Origin: Methylibium sp.
GTDB lineage: Bacteria > Pseudomonadota > Gammaproteobacteria > Burkholderiales > Burkholderiaceae_C
DNA length: 64,000 bases
Direction: 5' to 3'
NCBI GenBank assembly: GCA_013824165.1
Contig: PNNH01000018.1
Span: 1-64,000, forward strand
Shown here: piece by piece, positions 43,878 to 56,597 of the stretch
Layout: every line of letters starts with the position of its first letter
Numbering within the stretch: position 1 is the stretch's first letter
The notes under the pieces: model-generated
Told to the model about the DNA's origin: nothing
Database searches by the model: none
The model's input: the letters and a program-made list of their open reading frames with translations, nothing else
Made by a program: the position numbers and the translations under genes

Positions 43878-44348
43878 ATGAGCTCTGAAGTGCAACTGGA
43901 TGCGATCGACCGCGCCATCCTGAACGAGTTGCAGCACAACGGCCGGCTCTCCAATGTGGAACTGGCGCAGCGGGTCCACCTGTCACCTTCGGCGTGTCTG
44001 CGCCGGGTTAAGGTGCTTGAAGATGCGGGCGTGATTGCCGGCTATGTCGCTCTCGTCAATCCGAAAGCGGTGGGAAAACAGGGCACTTGCTACTCGATCA
44101 TCAATCTCGAACGCATGACCACCGCGGCGCTGGCGGCCTTCGAGCAGGCGATCCAGGACAGCCCGGACGTGCTGGACTGCTTCTACGTCGCCGGCACCAA
44201 CGACTACCTGATCCGCTTTGCCTACAGGGATGCCGAGGACCTGGAGCGCTTTCACACCCATGTGCTGATGCAGTTGCCCGAGGTGGCGCGCTCCAACTCG
44301 ATGCTGGTGCTGCGCACCATCAAGAAGACGACGGCTTTCGAGCTTTGA
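43878..44348 (+). CDS. Lrp/AsnC family transcriptional regulator
   Basis: DNA-binding regulator of 156 residues. Winged helix-turn-helix at ~8-60 (LDAIDRAILNELQHNGRLSN then LSPSACLRRVKVLE), and a RAM ligand-binding/oligomer domain from ~75. Start set at MSSEVQLD, at the end of an A-rich leader; the frame upstream is not conserved. It is divergent from the first polyamine gene, so the likely role is amino acid- or polyamine-responsive control of that block. This is inferred from position. Confidence 0.9.
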   Translation: MSSEVQLDAIDRAILNELQHNGRLSNVELAQRVHLSPSACLRRVKVLEDAGVIAGYVALVNPKAVGKQGTCYSIINLERMTTAALAAFEQAIQDSPDVLDCFYVAGTNDYLIRFAYRDAEDLERFHTHVLMQLPEVARSNSMLVLRTIKKTTAFEL

Positions 44349-44350
44349 GG

Positions 44351-44373
44351 GCTGGCCTCAGGCGCCGGCCAGC
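44351..44373. terminator. Hairpin at the convergent end of the Lrp gene and the small membrane gene
   Basis: A 7-bp stem GCTGGCC/GGCCAGC (44351-44357 with 44367-44373) spans the stop codon of the small minus-strand gene and starts 3 bases after the Lrp-gene stop. It has no T-run, so it may act as a transcript end structure rather than a strong terminator. Confidence 0.3.
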
Positions 44374-44525
44374 GCCACCAGCACGGACGCGGCGAACAAG
44401 CCCAGCGCGCCGGCAAAGCCCAGGCTTTCAACCTTGCGGGTGAAGCCGGCGAAACGCGGCTTGGCGGACGGTGTGCTCGTCAGATAGGCTTGCGACTGGC
44501 TCAGAAACAGCGGAACGGTACTCAT
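44358..44525 (-). CDS. Small predicted membrane protein, 55 residues
   Basis: A short reading frame starting MSTVPLFLSQSQAYL and ending VALAGA. Residues ~36-54 (LGFAGALGLFAASVLVALA) form one predicted membrane segment, preceded by a basic, Pro-containing stretch (SAKPRFAGFTRK). A strong GGGAGAG ribosome site lies 4 bases before the ATG. The codons are GC-rich at third positions, like neighbouring genes. It fills the only sizeable gap here and lies tail to tail with the Lrp-type gene, downstream of a DMT gene on the same strand. No family recognised. Confidence 0.65.
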   Translation of the reverse strand: MSTVPLFLSQSQAYLTSTPSAKPRFAGFTRKVESLGFAGALGLFAASVLVALAGA

Positions 44526-44614
44526 CAGGCTCTCCCAGCCACCTGGACCTCAGGTGGATTGGGTTCGACTGTGACAGCACTTAGTGAAAACCCTATGACA
44601 ATGGTCGCGTCCGC

Positions 44615-45514
44615 TCAGGCGGTCGCGCGAGCCGTGCGGCGCAGCAGCGGCAGCAACTGGATGGCCAGCATGCTGGTCAAGATCAGCGCGCAACCGGCCA
44701 GTCCTGCCGCGCCCAAGCGGTCACCCATCAGCAGGTAGCCAAACAGTGCGGCGAACAGGGTCTCTGACGACAGGATGATGGCGGCATCCGCCGCGTGCGC
44801 ATAGCGCTGAGCCACCACCTGCGCCGTGAAGGCGACGCCGACCGAGAGGATGCCCGCATAGAGCAGCGGCGCCGCGGCGGCCTGGACATCCGACCAGGCA
44901 AAGGGCTCGAAGGCGAAGGCCCAGCACAGGGCCACCAGGCCACAGAACAGGAACTGGCCGCCAGCCACCAGGAACGGCGCCGCCATGCGGTCGGCAACGC
45001 GGCCCACCAGCAAGACATGCAAAGCCCAGGGGAATGCCGAGCCGATCACCCACAGGTCGCCGGTGCCGATATTCAACTCGTGGGCACCTGACAGTAGGAA
45101 TGCGCCCACGAGGCAGGCCAGCGCTGCCGGCCATACCGACCAATGCGGCAGATGGCGCATCAGCAGCCAGCCCAGCAGTGGGACCAGGGGCACATACAGG
45201 GCGGTCAGGAAGCCGGCATTGGTGACCGAGGTGCTGACGATGCCGATCTGCTGCATCGCTGCCCCCATCAGCAACAAGCCGCCCAGGCCGGCAATTTTGG
45301 CCGCATCGGTGCGCTGCAGGGGCTTGCCTTGGCGCTGCAAGGCCTGCCACTCGCGCCACATCAGCGGCGCCACCACCAGCGTGCCGATCAGAAAGCGCAC
45401 GCCGGTGAAGGCCATCGGTCCGAGATCAGCCATGCCATGGCTTTGGGCGACAAAGGCGGAGCCCCAGATCAGGGCGATGACGGTCAGCAGCAGGTTGGCT
45501 TGGATACGGGTCAC
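44615..45514 (-). CDS. DMT-superfamily (EamA) transporter
   Basis: Inner-membrane transporter of 299 residues with about ten hydrophobic segments in two repeats. The start TRIQANLLLTVIALIWGSAFVAQ and the C-terminal AAIILSSETLFAALFGYLLMGDRL are the family's usual repeat signatures. It is the third EamA gene in this window, unlike the other two in sequence. It is preceded at 39 bases by the ferritin-like gene on the same strand. Substrate unknown. Confidence 0.85.
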   Translation of the reverse strand: MTRIQANLLLTVIALIWGSAFVAQSHGMADLGPMAFTGVRFLIGTLVVAPLMWREWQALQRQGKPLQRTDAAKIAGLGGLLLMGAAMQQIGIVSTSVTNAGFLTALYVPLVPLLGWLLMRHLPHWSVWPAALACLVGAFLLSGAHELNIGTGDLWVIGSAFPWALHVLLVGRVADRMAAPFLVAGGQFLFCGLVALCWAFAFEPFAWSDVQAAAAPLLYAGILSVGVAFTAQVVAQRYAHAADAAIILSSETLFAALFGYLLMGDRLGAAGLAGCALILTSMLAIQLLPLLRRTARATA

Positions 45515-45553
45515 AGGAATTGAATGGGTGAGAGATAGGAGAGCGGCGTGGCT

Positions 45554-46345
45554 TCAGCCCGCCTGCAGATAGGCGAGTTCTTCCGCGCTGAAACCAGCGG
45601 CGCTGCGCGCGGCCATATTGAAGGGCGGACGCAGCCGCGGCGCTTCGTACTGCGCCACCAGCTGCGGATACAAACCAAGCGGATCGAGTCCGCGTTCCCG
45701 GCACAGATGGCGATACCAGCGGTTGCCGATCTCGACATGGCCGATCTCGTCGCGCAAGATCACCTCCAGGATCTCCACCGCACGCTGATCGCCGGCGCGG
45801 GCGAACTTGGCCTGCAGCGGCGGCGTGGCATCCAGGCCGCGTGCTTCCAGCGTGCGCGGCACCAGGGCCATGCGCGCCAGCACATCGCCGGCGGTGCGCT
45901 CAGCCATGGTCCACAGCCCATCATGGGCGTCGAAGTCGCCATAGCTGTGGTTCAGGGTCTGCAGATGATCGTTCAGCAGCGTGAAGTGCAAGGCCTCCTC
46001 GGCCGCCACCTTGAGCCAGTCGCGGTAGAAGGCGTCGGGCATGCCGGGGAAGCGCCATATTGCATCGAGCGCCAGATTGATGGCGTTGAACTCGATATGC
46101 GCGATGGCATGCAGCAGGGCCGCGCGGCCTTCGATCGTAAAGGGCGAACGTTTGGGCACCTGCAGCGTGGGAACCAGCCGCGGGCGTTCGGGACGGCCGG
46201 GCAGGGCCGGCGGCTGCTCGAATACGCGCTGCGCGTCCAGCGCTAAGCCAGCCTGCGCGGCGTCGAAAAGGCTGCGCGCGGCCTGTGCTTTGTCGGCCGG
46301 AGGCACGAGACACAAGACCTGCAGCGCACGATCACGGAGTTCCAT
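45554..46345 (-). CDS. Ferritin-like DUF455 protein
   Basis: A 263-residue helical protein. Two carboxylate/His pairs typical of diiron ferritin-like proteins are visible: [12 protein letters not shown] (~83-94) with [11 protein letters not shown] (~114-124), and later [17 protein letters not shown] (~200). The N-terminal segment is basic. The family is of uncertain function and resembles tRNA hydroxylase MiaE in fold. No signal peptide. It is divergent from the gamma-carbonic anhydrase/hslO pair, with 49 bases between start codons. Confidence 0.82.
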
Positions 46346-46394
46346 TCTTACAATTATCCCTTTGCCTCGATGCGGGCCTGCCCGGGAGAACTCA

Positions 46395-46922
46395 ATGGCT
46401 GTCTATCAACTGGGCGAACACCGTCCCACTGTTCCTGAATCTGCTTGGGTGGCTGAGAGCGCCCAGGTGATCGGCAAAGTGAACTTGGGTGAGCATGTCA
46501 GTGTCTGGTTCAACGCCGTGTTGCGAGGCGACAGCGACTCACTGACCATCGGCGCTGGCAGCAATATCCAGGACGGCTCAGTGCTGCATGCCGACACCGG
46601 TTTTCCGCTGGTGCTGGCCGAGAACGTGACGGTGGGCCACCAGGTGATGCTGCATGGCTGCAGCGTGGGCGAGAACTCGCTGATCGGCATCGGCGCCGTG
46701 GTCTTGAACGGCGCACGCATCGGCAAGAACTGCTTGGTCGGCGCAGGTGCCCTGGTGACCGAAGGCAAGGAGTTTCCGGATGGCTCGCTGATCATCGGCA
46801 GCCCGGCCAAGGCGGTGCGCGAGTTGGCGCCCGAGCAGATCGCCGGGCTCAAGCTCAGCGCGCTGCACTATGTGAGCAATGGACAGCGCTATGCGTCCGA
46901 ACTGAAGAAGATCGCCGAATGA
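46395..46922 (+). CDS. Gamma-carbonic anhydrase family protein
   Basis: Left-handed beta-helix (hexapeptide repeat) trimer of the YrdA/PaaY/CaiE type, 175 residues. The repeats run from [22 protein letters not shown]; three His ligands for zinc appear in VLHAD and VGHQVMLHG. Activity may be carbonic anhydrase or a thioesterase-like role. ATG at 46395 is preceded by GGGAGAA; upstream codons of the same frame are antisense to the DUF455 gene. Its stop overlaps the hslO start by 4 bases. Confidence 0.9.
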
Positions 46923-47878
46923 GTGAATTGCACAAGTTTCTTTTCAAGGGTCTGCCGGTGCGCGGCCAGCTGGTGCGCCTGACCGACAGCTGGAAAGAGC
47001 TGCAGAGCCGGCGCGAGCCCGATGCGCATTACCCGCCCGAGGTGCGCCAGCTGCTGGGCGAGATGGCCGCCGCTGCGGTGCTGATGCAGTCCAACATCAA
47101 GTTCAACGGCGCCCTGGTGCTGCAGATCTTCGGCGATGGCCCGGTCAAGCTGGCGGTGGTCGAGGTGCAGCAGGACCTGAGCTACCGCGCCACGGCCAAG
47201 GTGGTCGGCGAGGTGCCACCGGGTGCCGGTCTGCCGGCGATGCTGAATGTCCATGGCCAGGGGCGCTGCGCGATCACGCTGGACCCCAAGGACAAGCTGC
47301 CGGGCCAGCAGCCCTATCAGGGGGTGGTGCCGCTCAGTGATGAGAAAGGCGCGCCCTTGCAGTCATTGAGCGCCGTGATCGAGCATTACATGCTCCAGTC
47401 TGAACAACTCAGCACCAGGCTGGTGCTTGCGGCCAGTGATGAGACGGCTGCCGGCCTGCTGATCCAGCATCTGCCGGTGCAGGGCGAGGGCAACCTGGCG
47501 GGTGCCACGCATGCCGAGGAAGACCCGGAGCTGGCGGACGCCTTCAATCGCATCGGCATTCTGGCGGCCAGTGCCAAGCGCGAAGAGCTGCTCGATCTGG
47601 ATGCGGAGACGGTGCTGCGGCGCTTGTTCTGGCAGGAACCTCTGGAGCGCTTCGAGCCGCTGCGTCCGCGCTTTGCCTGCACCTGCTCACGCGGTCGCGT
47701 GGGCGCGATGTTGCAAGGGCTGGGGCGTGAGGAAGTCGATTCGGTGCTGGAGGAGCGTGGCGAAGTCGAGATTGCCTGCGACTTCTGCGGCGCGCATTAC
47801 CGCTTCGATGCGGTGGACGTCGGCGAGCTCTTCACCGCCGGCCACCAACAGCAGCCGGGTAGCGGCACGTTGCAATAA
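46919..47878 (+). CDS. hslO: Redox-regulated chaperone Hsp33
   Basis: Holdase chaperone switched on by oxidation. 319 residues. The zinc-binding redox centre is C254-x-C256 and C287-x2-C290 in [10 protein letters not shown] and IACDFCGAH, all present. The N-terminal substrate-binding core starts [18 protein letters not shown]. Start overlaps the preceding stop (ATGA), so it is coupled with the gamma-carbonic anhydrase gene. Confidence 0.95.
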
Positions 47879-47899
47879 GCCGCCCGCTGGCCGGTGCGA

Positions 47900-47932
47900 G
47901 CGACCCTCCTGGCTGATGACCGTGAGGGTCGC
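47900..47932. terminator. Hairpin between convergent hslO and the 5'-nucleotidase gene
   Basis: A 9-bp perfect stem GCGACCCTC/GAGGGTCGC (47900-47908 with 47924-47932) with a 15-base loop fills the 66-base gap between two convergent genes. No clear T-run follows on either strand, so it is a likely but unproven terminator. Confidence 0.45.
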
Positions 47933-47944
47933 GGCCGCGCTTCT

Positions 47945-49633
47945 TCAGTTGATGCGCTTGACCCGATCAAGCGCGGGCGGGCGGATGCTGCGGCCGGCGC
48001 TCAGGTAACGCTCCAGCGCATCCACGTCCATGATGCCGGTGCGCAGCGCCTTGCCTTCGGTCAGCACGCGGAAACCATCGCCGCCACTGGACAGGAAGCT
48101 GTTGACGGTGACGCGGTAGCTGGCTGTGGGATCGATCGGCTGGCCGTTCAGCATCATGCTGCTGGCCACAATGCGCGCGCCCAGCGGCTTGCTCGCATCC
48201 CAGCTGTAGCTGAAACCCTGTGACACCTGCAGGAAGATGCCGCGCAGCTCTTCGCTGCGCCACTGCTGTTCCAGCAGTCGGCGGATCTGCTCGCCGGTCA
48301 GCGTCATCGTCACCAGGTTGTTGTAGAAGGGCTGAACCGCAAACGCGTCCGCGTAGCTGACCTCGCCGCTGGCGCTGCGCGTCAAGGCCGCGCGCACGCC
48401 GCCGGTGTTCATGAAGGCGATCTGCGCCCCACCGTCTGCTGCGGCAGCACTGGCGGCCAACTGTGCATCGGCAATCAGCTGCCCCATCGGCATCGAGCCT
48501 GCAGCGTCAGCGTCGCGGGAGATGCTGGCGTCGATGCGGCCGACGACGCGCCGGGCCAGCGGCTCGGCCAGTTTTTCATAGGCGGTTATCAGCTGTGTTT
48601 GCGCCGGGTCCTTGGCATAAGTTGCGGTGCGAACGATCACGTTGTTGGCCTTGGCGGCAATGACATCGCGGGTCTTGCGGTCCAGCTGCAGATCGATCTC
48701 GCTGACGACGGTGCCGTACTTGTCGCCGCTGGTGACCAGGCGACCATCGACCTGGCACTGGTATGCACGGTGCGTGTGGCCGCTGACGATCAGGTCAACG
48801 GCCTTGTCGAGCTTTTTCACGATGTCGACGATGGGCCCGGAAATTCCCGGGCACTCGTTGTAGTCGCCGGTCGGGTAACCGCCTTCATGGATCAACAGCA
48901 CGATGGCCTCGATCCCCTTGGCTCGAAGCTCCGGCACCAGCTTATTGACGGTCTCGGCCTCGTCATCGAAACGCAGTCCGGCCACACCTGCTGGCGTCAC
49001 GATGTCCGGTGTGCCCTTGAGCGTCAGGCCGATGAAGGCCACGGGCACGCCTTCGAAGCTCTTGACGTGGTAGGCCGGCAAGACGGTTTTGTTGGTCCTG
49101 GTGTCCCAGGTGCTGGCGGCCAGGTATTTGAAACTGGCCCCCTTGAACTGGGTCGGGCCCTTGCAGCCGTCCTTGGGATGGCAACCTCCGTACTGCTTGC
49201 GCAGCAGCTCGGCCAGGCCGGAGTCGAACTCGTGATTGCCCACGGCCGTGATCTCCAGGCCCATCAGGCTCAGCGACTCGATGGTCGGCTCGTCATAGAA
49301 CAAGGCCGACAGCAGCGGGCTGCCGCCGATCAGGTCGCCGGCAGCGACGAAGACATGGTTGGGGTTAGCCTTGCGCAGCTCGGCCACAGCGGTGGCCAGG
49401 TGTTCGGCGCCGCCAGCCGGCACGGTGATGGTCTTGCTGGGATCTTGCGGGTCCTTGATCCGGATGCCGCCGGAGGCCGGCTTCAGGTTGCCGTGGAAGT
49501 CGTTGATCGCCAGAACCTTGACGGCGACTGGCGTCGTCGGTGGCGCGTTGACCAAGCCGGCGCAGCCGGCGAGGGCGACGACGGGCAGCAAAGAGGCCAG
49601 AAGCCTGAGGCGGAAAGGGGTTCGGATCTTCAT
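47945..49633 (-). CDS. 5'-nucleotidase / UshA-family metallophosphoesterase lipoprotein
   Basis: Secreted phosphatase hydrolysing nucleotides or 2',3'-cyclic nucleotides, 562 residues. Lipoprotein signal with lipobox LAGC (C24). Metallophosphoesterase motifs: AINDFHGNL, AGDLIGGSPLLS, AVGNHEFDSG and VSGHTHRAYQC. The C-terminal nucleotidase domain has MNTGGVRAAL and VNSFLSSGGDGF. A PurR/LacI-type palindrome lies 17-28 bases upstream of the ATG, suggesting repression by a LacI-family purine- or nucleoside-responsive factor. Confidence 0.9.
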   Translation of the reverse strand: MKIRTPFRLRLLASLLPVVALAGCAGLVNAPPTTPVAVKVLAINDFHGNLKPASGGIRIKDPQDPSKTITVPAGGAEHLATAVAELRKANPNHVFVAAGDLIGGSPLLSALFYDEPTIESLSLMGLEITAVGNHEFDSGLAELLRKQYGGCHPKDGCKGPTQFKGASFKYLAASTWDTRTNKTVLPAYHVKSFEGVPVAFIGLTLKGTPDIVTPAGVAGLRFDDEAETVNKLVPELRAKGIEAIVLLIHEGGYPTGDYNECPGISGPIVDIVKKLDKAVDLIVSGHTHRAYQCQVDGRLVTSGDKYGTVVSEIDLQLDRKTRDVIAAKANNVIVRTATYAKDPAQTQLITAYEKLAEPLARRVVGRIDASISRDADAAGSMPMGQLIADAQLAASAAAADGGAQIAFMNTGGVRAALTRSASGEVSYADAFAVQPFYNNLVTMTLTGEQIRRLLEQQWRSEELRGIFLQVSQGFSYSWDASKPLGARIVASSMMLNGQPIDPTASYRVTVNSFLSSGGDGFRVLTEGKALRTGIMDVDALERYLSAGRSIRPPALDRVKRIN

Positions 49634-49649
49634 GCGCTGGGCTCCATGA

Positions 49650-49661
49650 GCAAACGTTTGC
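49650..49661. promoter_or_regulatory. LacI/PurR-type operator upstream of the 5'-nucleotidase gene
   Basis: GCAAACGTTTGC is a perfect 12-base palindrome centred on CG, identical to the core of the E. coli PurR box. It ends 16 bases before the ATG of a nucleotidase gene, a position suited to repression. The match to purine metabolism is notable, but the regulator is not in the window. Confidence 0.6.
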
Positions 49662-49703
49662 AGCTGATGTGGCCGCTAGTGTCTGCGTCAGCTGGCCATC
49701 GCG

Positions 49704-50408
49704 TCAAGCCTGATGACCCGAGCGCCGTAGGCTGGCGTGCTCGCATTCGGGCACATCGCAGTTCTGGCAGAACCAGGCCTGCTCGGGCATGGCCTGCTGG
49801 CGCTGCTCCAACCGGGTGAACAAGCCTTGGCGCGGGCCGCTGCGGGCGAGCAGCAAGGGGGTGAGCGCACTCAGCGCAGCTTCGGTTCGCGCTTCACCTT
49901 GGCCGCTGATCAGGGACCAAGGCAGACCGGCCTCGATCAATGTGCTGCGCAGCAGGCGGTCAACCGGCGTCTGCACATGGGGGCCGTCGCGCTGAAGTCC
50001 ATCGGCAACCCAGGGCAGGTCGAGCGCAGTGAGCAGGGTCAGAGCACAAAGCCGCTGCTGCTCAAGCGCGAACTCGAACAGGCTGTGGTCGCCGAACAGC
50101 AGTGCGCTGTAGATGGCCGTCATTAGCGGCGTGGTATCGCAGAGCACGATCTGGTGCGTTTGGGCGGCGGCTTGCACGGCTTGGGCCTGTGCCCTCGCGA
50201 TGGCGAACTGCTCATCCGCGCGCGGTGTGCGTCCAGCAGCAGCGCACCAATCGCGCAGGTGTTCAGTGACGTGGGTGCAACGCAGGCCGGTCTCGTCAGC
50301 CAATCGGGCGCACAAGGCCTGGGCCAGTGTGCTTTTGCCGGTGCTCTCGGCGCCCACGATCGCAATACGCAATCCGCCTGCCCGATCCGGCGCGCTTGGT
50401 GCCGACAT
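49704..50408 (-). CDS. NadR-like kinase (probable ribosylnicotinamide kinase)
   Basis: P-loop kinase of 234 residues similar to the C-terminal domain of NadR. Walker A GAESTGKS is at 19-26, followed by THVTEHLRDWC and DTTPLMTAIYSALLFG. The NadR nucleotidyltransferase and repressor domains are absent. Just upstream (11 bases) is pnuC, so the pair probably imports nicotinamide riboside and phosphorylates it to NMN. The last ~25 residues hold a Cys/His cluster (C214, C217, C222, H224) unusual for the family. Start set at MSAPSAPD; upstream codons overlap pnuC antisense sequence. Confidence 0.85.
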   Translation of the reverse strand: MSAPSAPDRAGGLRIAIVGAESTGKSTLAQALCARLADETGLRCTHVTEHLRDWCAAAGRTPRADEQFAIARAQAQAVQAAAQTHQIVLCDTTPLMTAIYSALLFGDHSLFEFALEQQRLCALTLLTALDLPWVADGLQRDGPHVQTPVDRLLRSTLIEAGLPWSLISGQGEARTEAALSALTPLLLARSGPRQGLFTRLEQRQQAMPEQAWFCQNCDVPECEHASLRRSGHQA

Positions 50409-50419
50409 CGCGATGCCGC

Positions 50420-51049
50420 TCAAGCCGGCTGCAACTGGCGCTGCCAAGCACGCCATCCCGCCACCGACATCGGAATGAAGACGGCGTAGAGCAGCACGGT
50501 CAACCAGTAGCCCTTGTAGGCGAACAGGCTGACACTGACGGCATTCACCAGCAGCCAAACGCCCCAGTTCTCCTGGTACTTGCGCCCGAGCAGGTACTGG
50601 CCCAGCAGGCTGGCCACGGTCGGGAAGGCGTCCCAGTACGGCACGCTTGAATCGGTCTGGCGATCCAGCCACAGACCGAGCAAGGGCCAGGCCAGCAGTA
50701 CGGCTGAGAGGGCCATCCAGCGTGCCCGTGCGCTCATGACGCGCACCTTGAGCGCGTGCCCTTGCTGATCGCGCCCGCGCAGCCATTGCCACCAGCCCCA
50801 GATGGCCAGCGCGGCGAACACGAGCTGTAAGGCCGCTTCACCATAGAGCTTGCCGCTCCAGAACAGCAGGAAGTACAGCAGCGAGCTGGTGAGCGCGAGG
50901 GGCCAAGCCAGCACATGCACGCGCATATTGCAGACCACCATCCAGATCGCCAGCGAAAAGGCCAGCAACTCGGTCCAGCTGATGGGGCTGCCGAGGACCT
51001 GGAAGGCCGGCGCAAACAGCGGTTGGAGTGACTGCAGCAGCGCGTCCAT
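50420..51049 (-). CDS. pnuC: Nicotinamide riboside transporter PnuC
   Basis: Inner-membrane facilitator of 209 residues with about seven spans. WPLALTSSLLYFLLFW and AIWGWWQWLRG are PnuC signatures, as is GRKYQENWGVWLLVNAVSV near 155. Uptake is driven by intracellular phosphorylation, here probably by the adjacent kinase. It begins 21 bases after the ftsB stop, so it is likely read from the eno-ftsB transcript. Confidence 0.92.
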   Translation of the reverse strand: MDALLQSLQPLFAPAFQVLGSPISWTELLAFSLAIWMVVCNMRVHVLAWPLALTSSLLYFLLFWSGKLYGEAALQLVFAALAIWGWWQWLRGRDQQGHALKVRVMSARARWMALSAVLLAWPLLGLWLDRQTDSSVPYWDAFPTVASLLGQYLLGRKYQENWGVWLLVNAVSVSLFAYKGYWLTVLLYAVFIPMSVAGWRAWQRQLQPA

Positions 51050-51070
51050 CGAGGGTGGGAGCGTGCTGAC

Positions 51071-51340
51071 TCAGCGACGCACGGTCACGAAGATTTCGTC
51101 CGGCTTGACCATGCCCAGCTCCAGGCGGGCCTTCTCTTCGACCATCTCCAGGCCTTCGCGCAGATCGCGGAGTTCAGCGCTGATCTGGTTGTTGCGTGCC
51201 CGAGCCGCTTCATTGGCCTGCTGCTGGGCAGCGACCTCGCTCTTGAGCTGCACCACGCGCGCAAGGCCGCCCTTGCCAAACCAGAGTTGGGCTTGGATGG
51301 CCACCAAGAAGGCAGCCAGGATGAGGCCGATGACTTTCAC
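51071..51340 (-). CDS. ftsB: Cell division protein FtsB
   Basis: Bitopic divisome protein that with FtsL and FtsQ activates septal wall synthesis. One membrane segment at ~2-18 (KVIGLILAAFLVAIQAQLW), then FGKGGLARV and a coiled coil to ~75. A GTG at 51340 is taken as the start, giving 89 residues as usual in the family. The longer frame from an ATG at 51403 would add 21 non-conserved residues and its ATG lies in the stem of a hairpin. Follows eno, as in many proteobacteria. Confidence 0.86.
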   Translation of the reverse strand: MKVIGLILAAFLVAIQAQLWFGKGGLARVVQLKSEVAAQQQANEAARARNNQISAELRDLREGLEMVEEKARLELGMVKPDEIFVTVRR

Positions 51341-51400
51341 AAGCGAAGTGTAGCCAAGGCGGTATCCGCCCGAACCCAGAGGGTCCGGGCGCTTGCGAGA

Positions 51401-51430
51401 CATGCGTCAAAACGCAAGTTTTGCCGCATG
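51401..51430 (-). terminator. Hairpin between eno and ftsB
   Basis: Stem CATGCG/CGCATG (51401-51406 with 51425-51430), one mismatch, then CAAAAC/GTTTTG (51408-51413 with 51418-51423) with a four-base loop. It starts 8 bases after the eno stop. With no T-run after it, it may be an mRNA-stabilising or partial attenuating element separating high eno from lower ftsB expression. Confidence 0.45.
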
Positions 51431-51437
51431 TCCACGC

Positions 51438-52724
<1,287 letters not shown>

Positions 52725-52818
52725 TCAAGGTCTCCAAAAGGTCAGGAATTCTTTGTGGGGCAGATGATGGCGGCAGATCGTTACCTGCGCTGAACAAGAT
52801 GCGCGCGCAGCAAGTGCC

Positions 52819-53106
52819 TCAGACGCCGTCGACCACCACCATGCGCATGATGCCGGCCTGCTCGCGCAGCGACTTGGCATGCTGGTAGGTCTGGGAGTTG
52901 TAGAAGGCCTTGGCCGCGGAGCGGTTGGCAAACTTCAGCAGCACGATGCGGCTGGGCGTCCATGGGCCTTCCAGCACCTCGAACTCGCCGCCGCGCACCA
53001 GCACTTCGGCGCCATGCTCTTGCATCGCTTTGGTCGACCACTCGCGGTACTTGGCCATCTGCTCAGGGTCGGTGACAGTGACGTCGGCAATGATGTAGGC
53101 AGCCAT
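52819..53106 (-). CDS. DUF1330 family protein
   Basis: A 95-residue protein of the dimeric alpha/beta-barrel (ABM-like) fold. Family marks: YIIADVTVTDPEQMAKYREW, then GPWTPSRIVLLKF and AKAFYNSQTYQHAKSLR. Often small cytoplasmic proteins of unknown role. It sits between kdsA (63 bases) and eno (94 bases) on the same strand, so it is probably cotranscribed with the core cluster. Confidence 0.9.
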   Translation of the reverse strand: MAAYIIADVTVTDPEQMAKYREWSTKAMQEHGAEVLVRGGEFEVLEGPWTPSRIVLLKFANRSAAKAFYNSQTYQHAKSLREQAGIMRMVVVDGV

Positions 53107-53169
53107 GATCTGCAGGGTCTTTCTTGCTTGGTTCGGCAGGAGTGGTGGTTCTGGCGAAGTGGCTTCGAC

Positions 53170-54027
53170 TCAGCCGTTGAAGTCGTTCTCTAGCAGCGGC
53201 TGGGACTTGACCACGCGGTCCAGTGCGACCAGTTGCGTGAGCAACGCCTTCATGTGCTTGAGTGGCACGGCATTCGGACCGTCAGACCAGGCCTCGGCCG
53301 GACGCGGGTGGGTTTCCATGAAGAGACCGGCCACACCTGCTGCCACGCCGGCACGGGCCAGCACCGGCACCATCTCGCGGGCGCCGCCACTGCTGGTCCC
53401 TTGACCGCCGGGCTTCTGCACCGAATGGGTCACGTCGAACACCACCGGGGCACCTGTCTTGCGCATCTCGGCCAGGCTGCTCATGTCGGCCACGAGGTTG
53501 TTGTAGCCGAAGCTCACGCCGCGCTCGCAAGCCAGAAAGCGGTCTTCCGACAGACCTGCCTCGCGAGCCGCCTCGCGCGCCTTGTCGATGACATTCTTCA
53601 TGTCCCAGGGCGCGAGGAACTGGCCCTTCTTGATGTTGACCGGCTTGCCCGACTTGGCCACGGCACGGATGAAGTCCGTCTGGCGGCACAGGAAGGCCGG
53701 GGTCTGAAGCACGTCGACCACGCTGGCCACCTCGGCCACCTGGGACTCATCATGAACGTCGGTCAAGATGGGCAACTGAAGTTGGCGGCGCACCTCGTCC
53801 AAAATCTTCAGGCCGGCCTCCATGCCCACGCCGCGCTTGGTGCTGCTGGAAGAGCGGTTGGCCTTGTCGAAGGATCCCTTGTAGATCAGGGGAATGCCCA
53901 GGGCGGAGCAGGCTTCCTTCAGTTGGCCTGCCACATCCAGGGACATGTCCAGACCTTCGATCGAACAGGTGCCAGCAATCAGGAAGAAGGGTTTGTCGAT
54001 CCCGACGTCGAATCCGCACAGCTTCAT
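53170..54027 (-). CDS. kdsA: 3-deoxy-8-phosphooctulonate synthase (KDO8P synthase), apparently metal-dependent type
   Basis: Condenses phosphoenolpyruvate and arabinose 5-phosphate to KDO8P for lipopolysaccharide inner core. 285 residues. C21 in IAGTCSIEG takes the position held by Asn in metal-independent KdsA of E. coli, and [26 protein letters not shown] and WSDG follow the metal-dependent pattern. FDKANRSS, the PEP/A5P site, is conserved. It follows pyrG by 14 bases. Confidence 0.95.
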
Positions 54028-54041
54028 GGGTTGCTTTCTTG

Positions 54042-56597
<2,556 letters not shown>

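Follow-up and report, generated by a model that had tools for sequence, protein, structure and literature searches.

Introduction

RbsR repressors of the beta- and gammaproteobacteria, as Ravcheev et al. (2014; PMC4052901) describe them, form a group from which PurR is excluded as a clade; PurR has the same motif because it descends from RbsR, and it retained that motif while its ligand and default state changed. Where that account treats their distribution, the betaproteobacteria are given a single RbsR and PurR orthologues are placed only in three gammaproteobacterial orders; UriR, AdeR, and HpxR are also mentioned. For nucleotidases, a described arrangement is the NadN-PnuC-NadR route of Haemophilus influenzae, in which a periplasmic nucleotidase feeds nicotinamide riboside to PnuC and a kinase (PMC10694654).

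Here we analyze a 64,000-nucleotide stretch of a Methylibium sp. genome (contig PNNH01000018.1, positions 1 to 64,000; hereafter the window), in which a short palindrome stands before a 5'-nucleotidase gene. The palindrome shares its core with the PurR box of E. coli. Judging from the sequence and its relatives, it is very probably a real repressor site, through which an enzyme of nucleotide degradation is linked to a small set of nucleoside-scavenging genes and to a regulator of the ribose type, not the purine type. No paper recognizable as describing this regulon was found in the literature; RegPrecise may already list parts of it.

Results and Discussion

The Nucleotidase Locus

The features on which the analysis turns are as follows.

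49650..49661, strandless: candidate operator, the perfect palindrome GCAAACGTTTGC, proposed from four exact copies per genome and from conservation before the nucleotidase
47945..49633, minus strand: 5'-nucleotidase, 562 aa, with a lipoprotein-type N-terminus (LAGC, Cys24); PF00149 and PF02872
49704..50408, minus strand: NadR-kinase-like protein, probable nicotinamide riboside kinase; Pfam AAA_28; TIGR01526 (nadR) 56.8 bits, below the cut-off of 341
50420..51049, minus strand: PnuC, nicotinamide riboside transporter; PF04973; TIGR01528 84.3 bits, above the cut-off of 42.45
49702..49707, minus strand: proposed -35 element TTGACG, overlapping the kinase stop codon, from sequence and recurrence
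49678..49683, minus strand: proposed -10 element GACACT, a weak match to consensus, 18 bases past the -35 element and 16 bases ahead of the operator

The window sequence reads as a perfect 12-base palindrome that spans -28 to -17 of the minus-strand nucleotidase frame, where the original prediction had put it, with 16 bases between palindrome and ATG (49633-49631). The predicted identity of the downstream gene also holds: its product carries the Pfam Metallophos and 5_nucleotid_C domains, and the PDB chains related to it are 5'-nucleotidases. The lipobox was judged by eye. On the NadN model TIGR01530 the protein reaches 97.5 bits, far under the cut-off of 436, so any NAD activity would be putative. 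The minus-strand gene order is pnuC, the NadR-kinase-like gene, then the nucleotidase gene, and the end of the kinase gene together with the 70-base gap that follows it reads TTGACG, an 18-base spacer, GACACT, 16 bases, and the palindrome. The same succession of TTGACG, [GC]ACACT, and palindrome occurs in six other genomes (G001, G101, G205, G029, G178, and G259); a strict consensus scan called no promoter or terminator here. The window holds no tRNA, and no Rfam element was found in 44000-56000.

Exact Copies and Their Genes

The genome (4,708,395 bases, 99.26% complete) holds four exact copies of GCAAACGTTTGC, where Markov models of orders 0, 1, 2, and 3, fitted on 132,551 bases of the same genome, lead to expectations of 0.15, 0.31, 0.14, and 0.04; a reversed control sequence has none. 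Near-matches are not enriched in this way. With up to two mismatches there are three matches in the window against 2.88 expected; with up to one mismatch, the whole genome has seven palindrome sites against five for the control, which is no clear enrichment, and a 10-base core with up to one mismatch occurs 34 times genome-wide against 38 for its control. Since near-matches lie at background, weight can come only from exactness or from recurrence ahead of one gene across several genomes, and near-matches were counted only in the latter case.

The four exact copies stand before a LacI-family gene, the nucleotidase gene, a TonB-dependent receptor gene, and a 2OG-Fe oxygenase gene divergent from sucA. 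One other genome of the genus was compared (G001), and its four exact copies stand at these four genes as well. The third copy is 45 bases ahead of the receptor gene, which is followed by pyrE, and the site on this pyrE-side receptor is also exact in G001, G008, G197, and G275. None of the three exact sites in G281, G099, or G203 is at this receptor, which indicates a variable target set; G101 and G205 have four exact sites each, two of the four being located in each. In G091, an exact site precedes a related receptor that adjoins the regulator gene.

The fourth copy (contig C107, L011:1689-1700) lies between the gene for the 2OG-Fe(II) oxygenase, whose nearest solved chain is the uncharacterized 3on7 (412 bits), and sucA, the E1 component of 2-oxoglutarate dehydrogenase. 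This site recurs in eight genomes, exact in six (G000, G001, G281, G099, G203, and G035) and with one mismatch in G135 and G229. In the seven of these compared for it (all but G001), a CTAGACT element faces the oxygenase 18 bases past the site, in the variants CTAAACT in the window's genome and TTAGACT in G229; because of its orientation, the oxygenase is a likelier target than sucA.

A one-mismatch copy on contig C53 (L014:5515-5526) lies 78 bases before the gene for a second outer-membrane receptor (OMP_b-brl_4). All five genomes checked for this have one-mismatch sites upstream of related receptors (56-62% identical): in G281, G203, and G099 the distance to the start is about 77-79 bases, and G281 and G203 have a second upstream site; in G275 and G197 the distance is about 130-390 bases. 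Two further one-mismatch copies fall within coding regions and were taken as chance, one (C1:70378) in the gene for a solute-binding protein and the other (C18:27416) in that for a PEP-CTERM protein, which lies upstream of an ExeM/NucH nuclease.

Distribution of the Palindrome and Regulator

A search of the whole genome with the LacI helix-turn-helix model returned a single LacI-family gene, so that the regulator gene sought by the original prediction was found, with an exact palindrome 85 bases ahead of its start and a GCTATGCT element just ahead of that palindrome. Among 60 relatives, the exact palindrome occurs in 20 and the reversed control in five; the regulator (E 1e-60) occurs in 10, all of them among the 20, leaving 10 of the 60 with an exact copy and no regulator. 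In a wider set of 399 family genomes, 138 hold an exact copy and 30 a regulator orthologue (E 1e-110), the palindrome being present in 29 of the 30 regulator-bearing genomes vs. 109 of the other 369 (Fisher p about 1e-13, indicative only since the genomes are related). Here "regulator-less" means without a match at E 1e-110; more distant homologues exist, for example in G021. Because 109 of 369 genomes without an orthologue hold an exact copy, other factors or more distant regulators use or tolerate the palindrome. Eight regulator-less genomes (G285, G348, G406, G109, G210, G102, G206, and G070) have direct tandem exact palindromes 12 bases apart. Four genomes (G014, G086, G197, and G275) have the exact palindrome within nuclease-like genes (L248, L250, L251, and L253; labels assigned by eye, the one of the four that was scanned being Exo_endo_phos). 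These copies are probably coding only, since the palindrome encodes a conserved PANVC peptide in frame and coding sequence thus accounts for them.

Every one of the 30 regulator-bearing genomes has a site at the regulator or its operon; 28 of these sites are exact, and those of G135 and G229 have one mismatch. The site lies within 200 bases of the regulator gene in 28 of the 30 and 1.1-1.2 kb upstream in G224 and G361; in G224 it stands just ahead of a Bmp-type binding-protein gene leading into the regulator.

Before the nucleotidase gene, a palindrome with at most one mismatch was found in 16 of 20 regulator-bearing genomes vs. none of 15 regulator-less genomes examined (Fisher p = 1.9e-6, among related genomes). 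The 20 are the regulator-bearing genomes examined that have a nucleotidase homologue at least 59% identical; the 15 were drawn from 75 regulator-less genomes with a nucleotidase match. The site is exact in seven (G000, G001, G101, G205, G099, G203, and G281) and has one mismatch in nine (G135, G229, G197, G373, G311, G241, G029, G178, and G259); it is absent at this threshold from four regulator-bearing genomes (G035, G008, G091, and G151). At the 15 regulator-less loci, whose nucleotidases are 48-67% identical, there is no palindrome even at two mismatches over 3.7-5.0 kb, and five of these loci have the pnuC-kinase-nucleotidase order. Across 80 named nucleotidase loci, the site is exact in three (G101, G205, and G203). 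In G001 (L098, contig C147), the nucleotidase homologue is split over two overlapping frames and is therefore read as frameshifted, in the genome or in the assembly.

Aligned on the palindrome, the 16 sites have 92% pairwise identity within the site vs. 32% in the 45 bases before it and 30% in the 30 bases after it. In the comparison of upstream regions, in which the automatic start codon was wrong for G101, G205, and G241, placement relative to promoter-like elements could be assigned for 12 of the 16: the site follows TTGACG-[GC]ACACT in seven genomes, including that of the window, and lies directly ahead of a -10-like TATAGT or TAGAAT in five (G099, G203, G281, G135, and G229). The position of the putative operator relative to these promoter-like elements has thus shifted between genome groups.

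Ten genomes stand outside the 20-genome count. Five of them (G014, G251, G320, G380, and G168) have a homologue that is 39-44% identical, with a site about 0.4-0.8 kb upstream, exact in four and with one mismatch in G320; their near-matches are not above control in three of the five and barely so in the rest. In G324, an exact site lies between the regulator gene and a 39% identical homologue that is divergent from it. In G224, a TonB receptor gene with an exact site precedes a partial, 44% identical homologue, in what appears to be an independent nucleoside-scavenging cluster (L254, 229-5998): pyrimidine-phosphorylase-type and phosphopentomutase-type genes, the exact palindrome, the TonB-dependent receptor gene, and then the nucleotidase gene. 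The remaining three are G275, with a 50% identical homologue, G086, which has no nucleotidase match at the threshold, and G361.

Regulator Identity and the Probable Inducer

The regulator gene, at 87255-88259 of contig C6 and preceded by a citrate synthase gene, heads an operon in which it is followed by genes for a ribokinase (TIGR02152, 305.0 bits, above the cut-off of 299.65), a nucleoside hydrolase, and an amidohydrolase. Its product combines a LacI helix-turn-helix with a sugar-binding effector domain (PF00356, PF13377, and PF00532). The curated RbsR model NF007743 is not reached (306.7 of 531 bits), nor is NF047341 (284.6 of 382), and the PurR model falls below its cut-off as well (299.4 of 501 bits); because the curated models were built on other clades, membership in the wider RbsR group is the most that can be assigned. 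A tree of 39 proteins groups E. coli RbsR with PurR (99/94) and places the query in a separate clade of 24, with an unresolved base and with the E. coli proteins on long branches. More distant regulators, 46-49% identical, are found in G042, G021, and G056 in rbsB-A-C-R-K operons headed by the same palindrome.

We consider it likely that the palindrome serves as operator for an RbsR-type repressor, the one LacI-family protein of this Roseateles/Paucibacter-group bacterium, which would be released by ribose or a close derivative and would control nucleotide and nucleoside scavenging. This reading draws on the site and its conservation, its co-occurrence with the regulator, the regulator's own site and operon, and a ribose-type ligand pocket. 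At ten positions that we take, from E. coli RbsB (the ribose-binding protein), to be ribose contacts, the regulator reads N F F D R R F N D C and RbsB N F F D R R F N D Q, so that nine of ten are kept and the position of Q235 is Cys; the corresponding residues are A Y F D W R F G D Q in PurR and N F Y D W R F N D Q in E. coli RbsR. Among 34 regulators compared, these contacts are kept except at Q235 in most and for F15Y in three. Weighing against an operator, nine of the 16 positive genomes have a one-mismatch site only, a class that is not clearly enriched genome-wide.

The nearest competing account accepts an RbsR-like regulator and makes its inducer a nucleoside, as for CytR, or a nucleotide, in place of free ribose. 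It would suit genomes such as G057, G224, and others, where the regulator is grouped with BMP/nucleoside-type ABC transporter genes, and the placement of the G224 site between phosphorylase/phosphopentomutase-type genes and the TonB receptor; the retention of the ribose contacts across the regulators compared speaks against it, and we regard it as rather unlikely.

The original prediction was of a LacI-family purine sensor that represses the nucleotidase, so that scavenging follows purine need. We find this reading, with a PurR-like protein whose corepressor would be a purine base, improbable. In its favor are the shared core, a regulator that is 40% identical to PurR, close to the 42% for RbsR, a PurR/RbsR-like recognition helix, and the nucleoside hydrolase of the operon, which would release purine bases. 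The PurR residues that we take to be its purine contacts, W147, R190, and T192, are nevertheless R, F, and V in the regulator, whose operon pairs ribokinase with nucleoside hydrolase and whose relatives in three genomes sit among rbs genes. The resemblance to the PurR box holds for the 12-base core only; the 16-base consensus box has no match within three mismatches in the window. The genome scan near purine and nucleoside genes that had been suggested led to the regulator/nucleoside-hydrolase operon and the nucleotidase, and to no recognizable purine-synthesis gene at the seven sites with at most one mismatch; purL, 5 kb from the regulator's site, has no palindrome near it, a negative that covers these sites and purL. 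The placement of PurR orthologues by Ravcheev et al. (PMC4052901), so far as that account extends, also argues against it, and the ancestry of RbsR and PurR given there accounts for the PurR-core look of the palindrome. Of the predicted control, the LacI-family operator is supported, on the grounds of the single LacI gene, the palindrome before that gene, the co-occurrence between genomes, and a site just past promoter-like elements; the purine sensor is not.

That the palindrome is chance and the nucleotidase merely part of a pnuC-kinase NAD-precursor operon, perhaps under an NAD regulator, is scarcely credible: the cluster does resemble NAD-precursor salvage, many regulator-less genomes hold the palindrome somewhere, and near-matches are at background, but a chance origin of the exact site is rejected on the exact count against expectation and on conservation of the site against its flanks, the palindrome is missing from the five regulator-less genomes that share this gene order, and the published NadQ motif (PMC5343134) has with up to three mismatches four window matches vs. 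4.79 expected, none near the nucleotidase cluster.

A Model for Control by an RbsR-Type Repressor

For binding, the inducer, the direction of regulation, and the substrates of the nucleotidase and receptors, we infer the following from the RbsR-type reading. Without inducer, a repressor dimer would sit just downstream of the nucleotidase's own promoter and block it. That promoter, with a predicted transcription start near 49671, would lie within the pnuC-kinase-nucleotidase cluster, the palindrome separating the nucleotidase from pnuC and the kinase. As nucleotides or nucleosides are consumed, the nucleoside hydrolase would free ribose; ribose or a close derivative would then release the repressor, and the nucleotidase, the TonB-dependent receptor(s), the hydrolase, and the ribokinase would rise together. 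The nucleotidase would in this way be tied to nucleotides as a source of ribose, separately from the NAD-precursor genes that precede it. The sense of control is probably opposite to that of PurR, with a sugar freeing the repressor instead of a base strengthening its binding.

More tentatively, one repressor may run a full outer-membrane-to-cytoplasm system for extracellular nucleotides or nucleic acids, in which TonB-dependent receptors would import nucleotides or oligonucleotides, the lipoprotein 5'-nucleotidase would dephosphorylate them, the hydrolase would free ribose, and the ribokinase would trap it; a promoter placed after pnuC and the kinase would let carbon supply draw on a NAD-salvage enzyme, and the 2OG-Fe oxygenase would be an unrecognized step in nucleoside or base breakdown. 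If true, this would be a utilization system comparable to a polysaccharide utilization system.

The control proposed here is a fairly ordinary kind of metabolic regulation, though the comparison supports the palindrome well. It accounts for the presence of a box resembling that of PurR in a betaproteobacterium, the motif being the older RbsR operator; for this reason, a PurR-core palindrome found beyond the enteric relatives should not be taken as a sign of purine control. The proposal also suggests nucleotide or nucleoside uptake roles for two uncharacterized outer-membrane receptors and associates a solved but uncharacterized 2OG-Fe oxygenase with this regulator. A regulon of one LacI-family protein and about five targets would be easy to test.

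Comparison With Described Systems

As in the H. influenzae NadN-PnuC-NadR route, nucleotidase, PnuC, and kinase genes are present, and here they are adjacent; unlike NadN, the nucleotidase matches the NadN model at only 97.5 of 436 bits and has its own putative operator. By analogy, that route suggests a possible second use of the same nucleotidase. The locus shares with CytR- and UriR-type LacI regulators the kind of pathway, nucleoside utilization, whereas the regulator scores lower on the CytR (254 bits, cut-off 436) and UriR (170.5 bits, cut-off 550) models than on that of RbsR.

With E. coli PurR, the locus has in common the 12-base core, a similar helix-turn-helix, and 40% identity; it differs in the two outermost bases at either end of the 16-base consensus box, which mismatch here, in the purine-contact residues, absent at the positions that we assume, and in its targets, none of the seven sites with at most one mismatch standing at a recognizable purine-synthesis gene.

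The closest likeness is to the RbsR repressors (E. coli RbsR, PDB 9ny7), which, as far as Ravcheev et al. (PMC4052901) describe them, have the same combination of LacI helix-turn-helix, periplasmic-binding domain, and linked ribokinase, and an even palindrome of the GCAAACGTTTGC type with a central CG upstream of their own operon. Unlike them, the operon here has a nucleoside hydrolase in place of a ribose transporter, the regulator is only 42% identical to E. coli RbsR, and the palindrome also precedes genes for a nucleotidase, TonB-dependent receptors, and a 2OG-Fe oxygenase.
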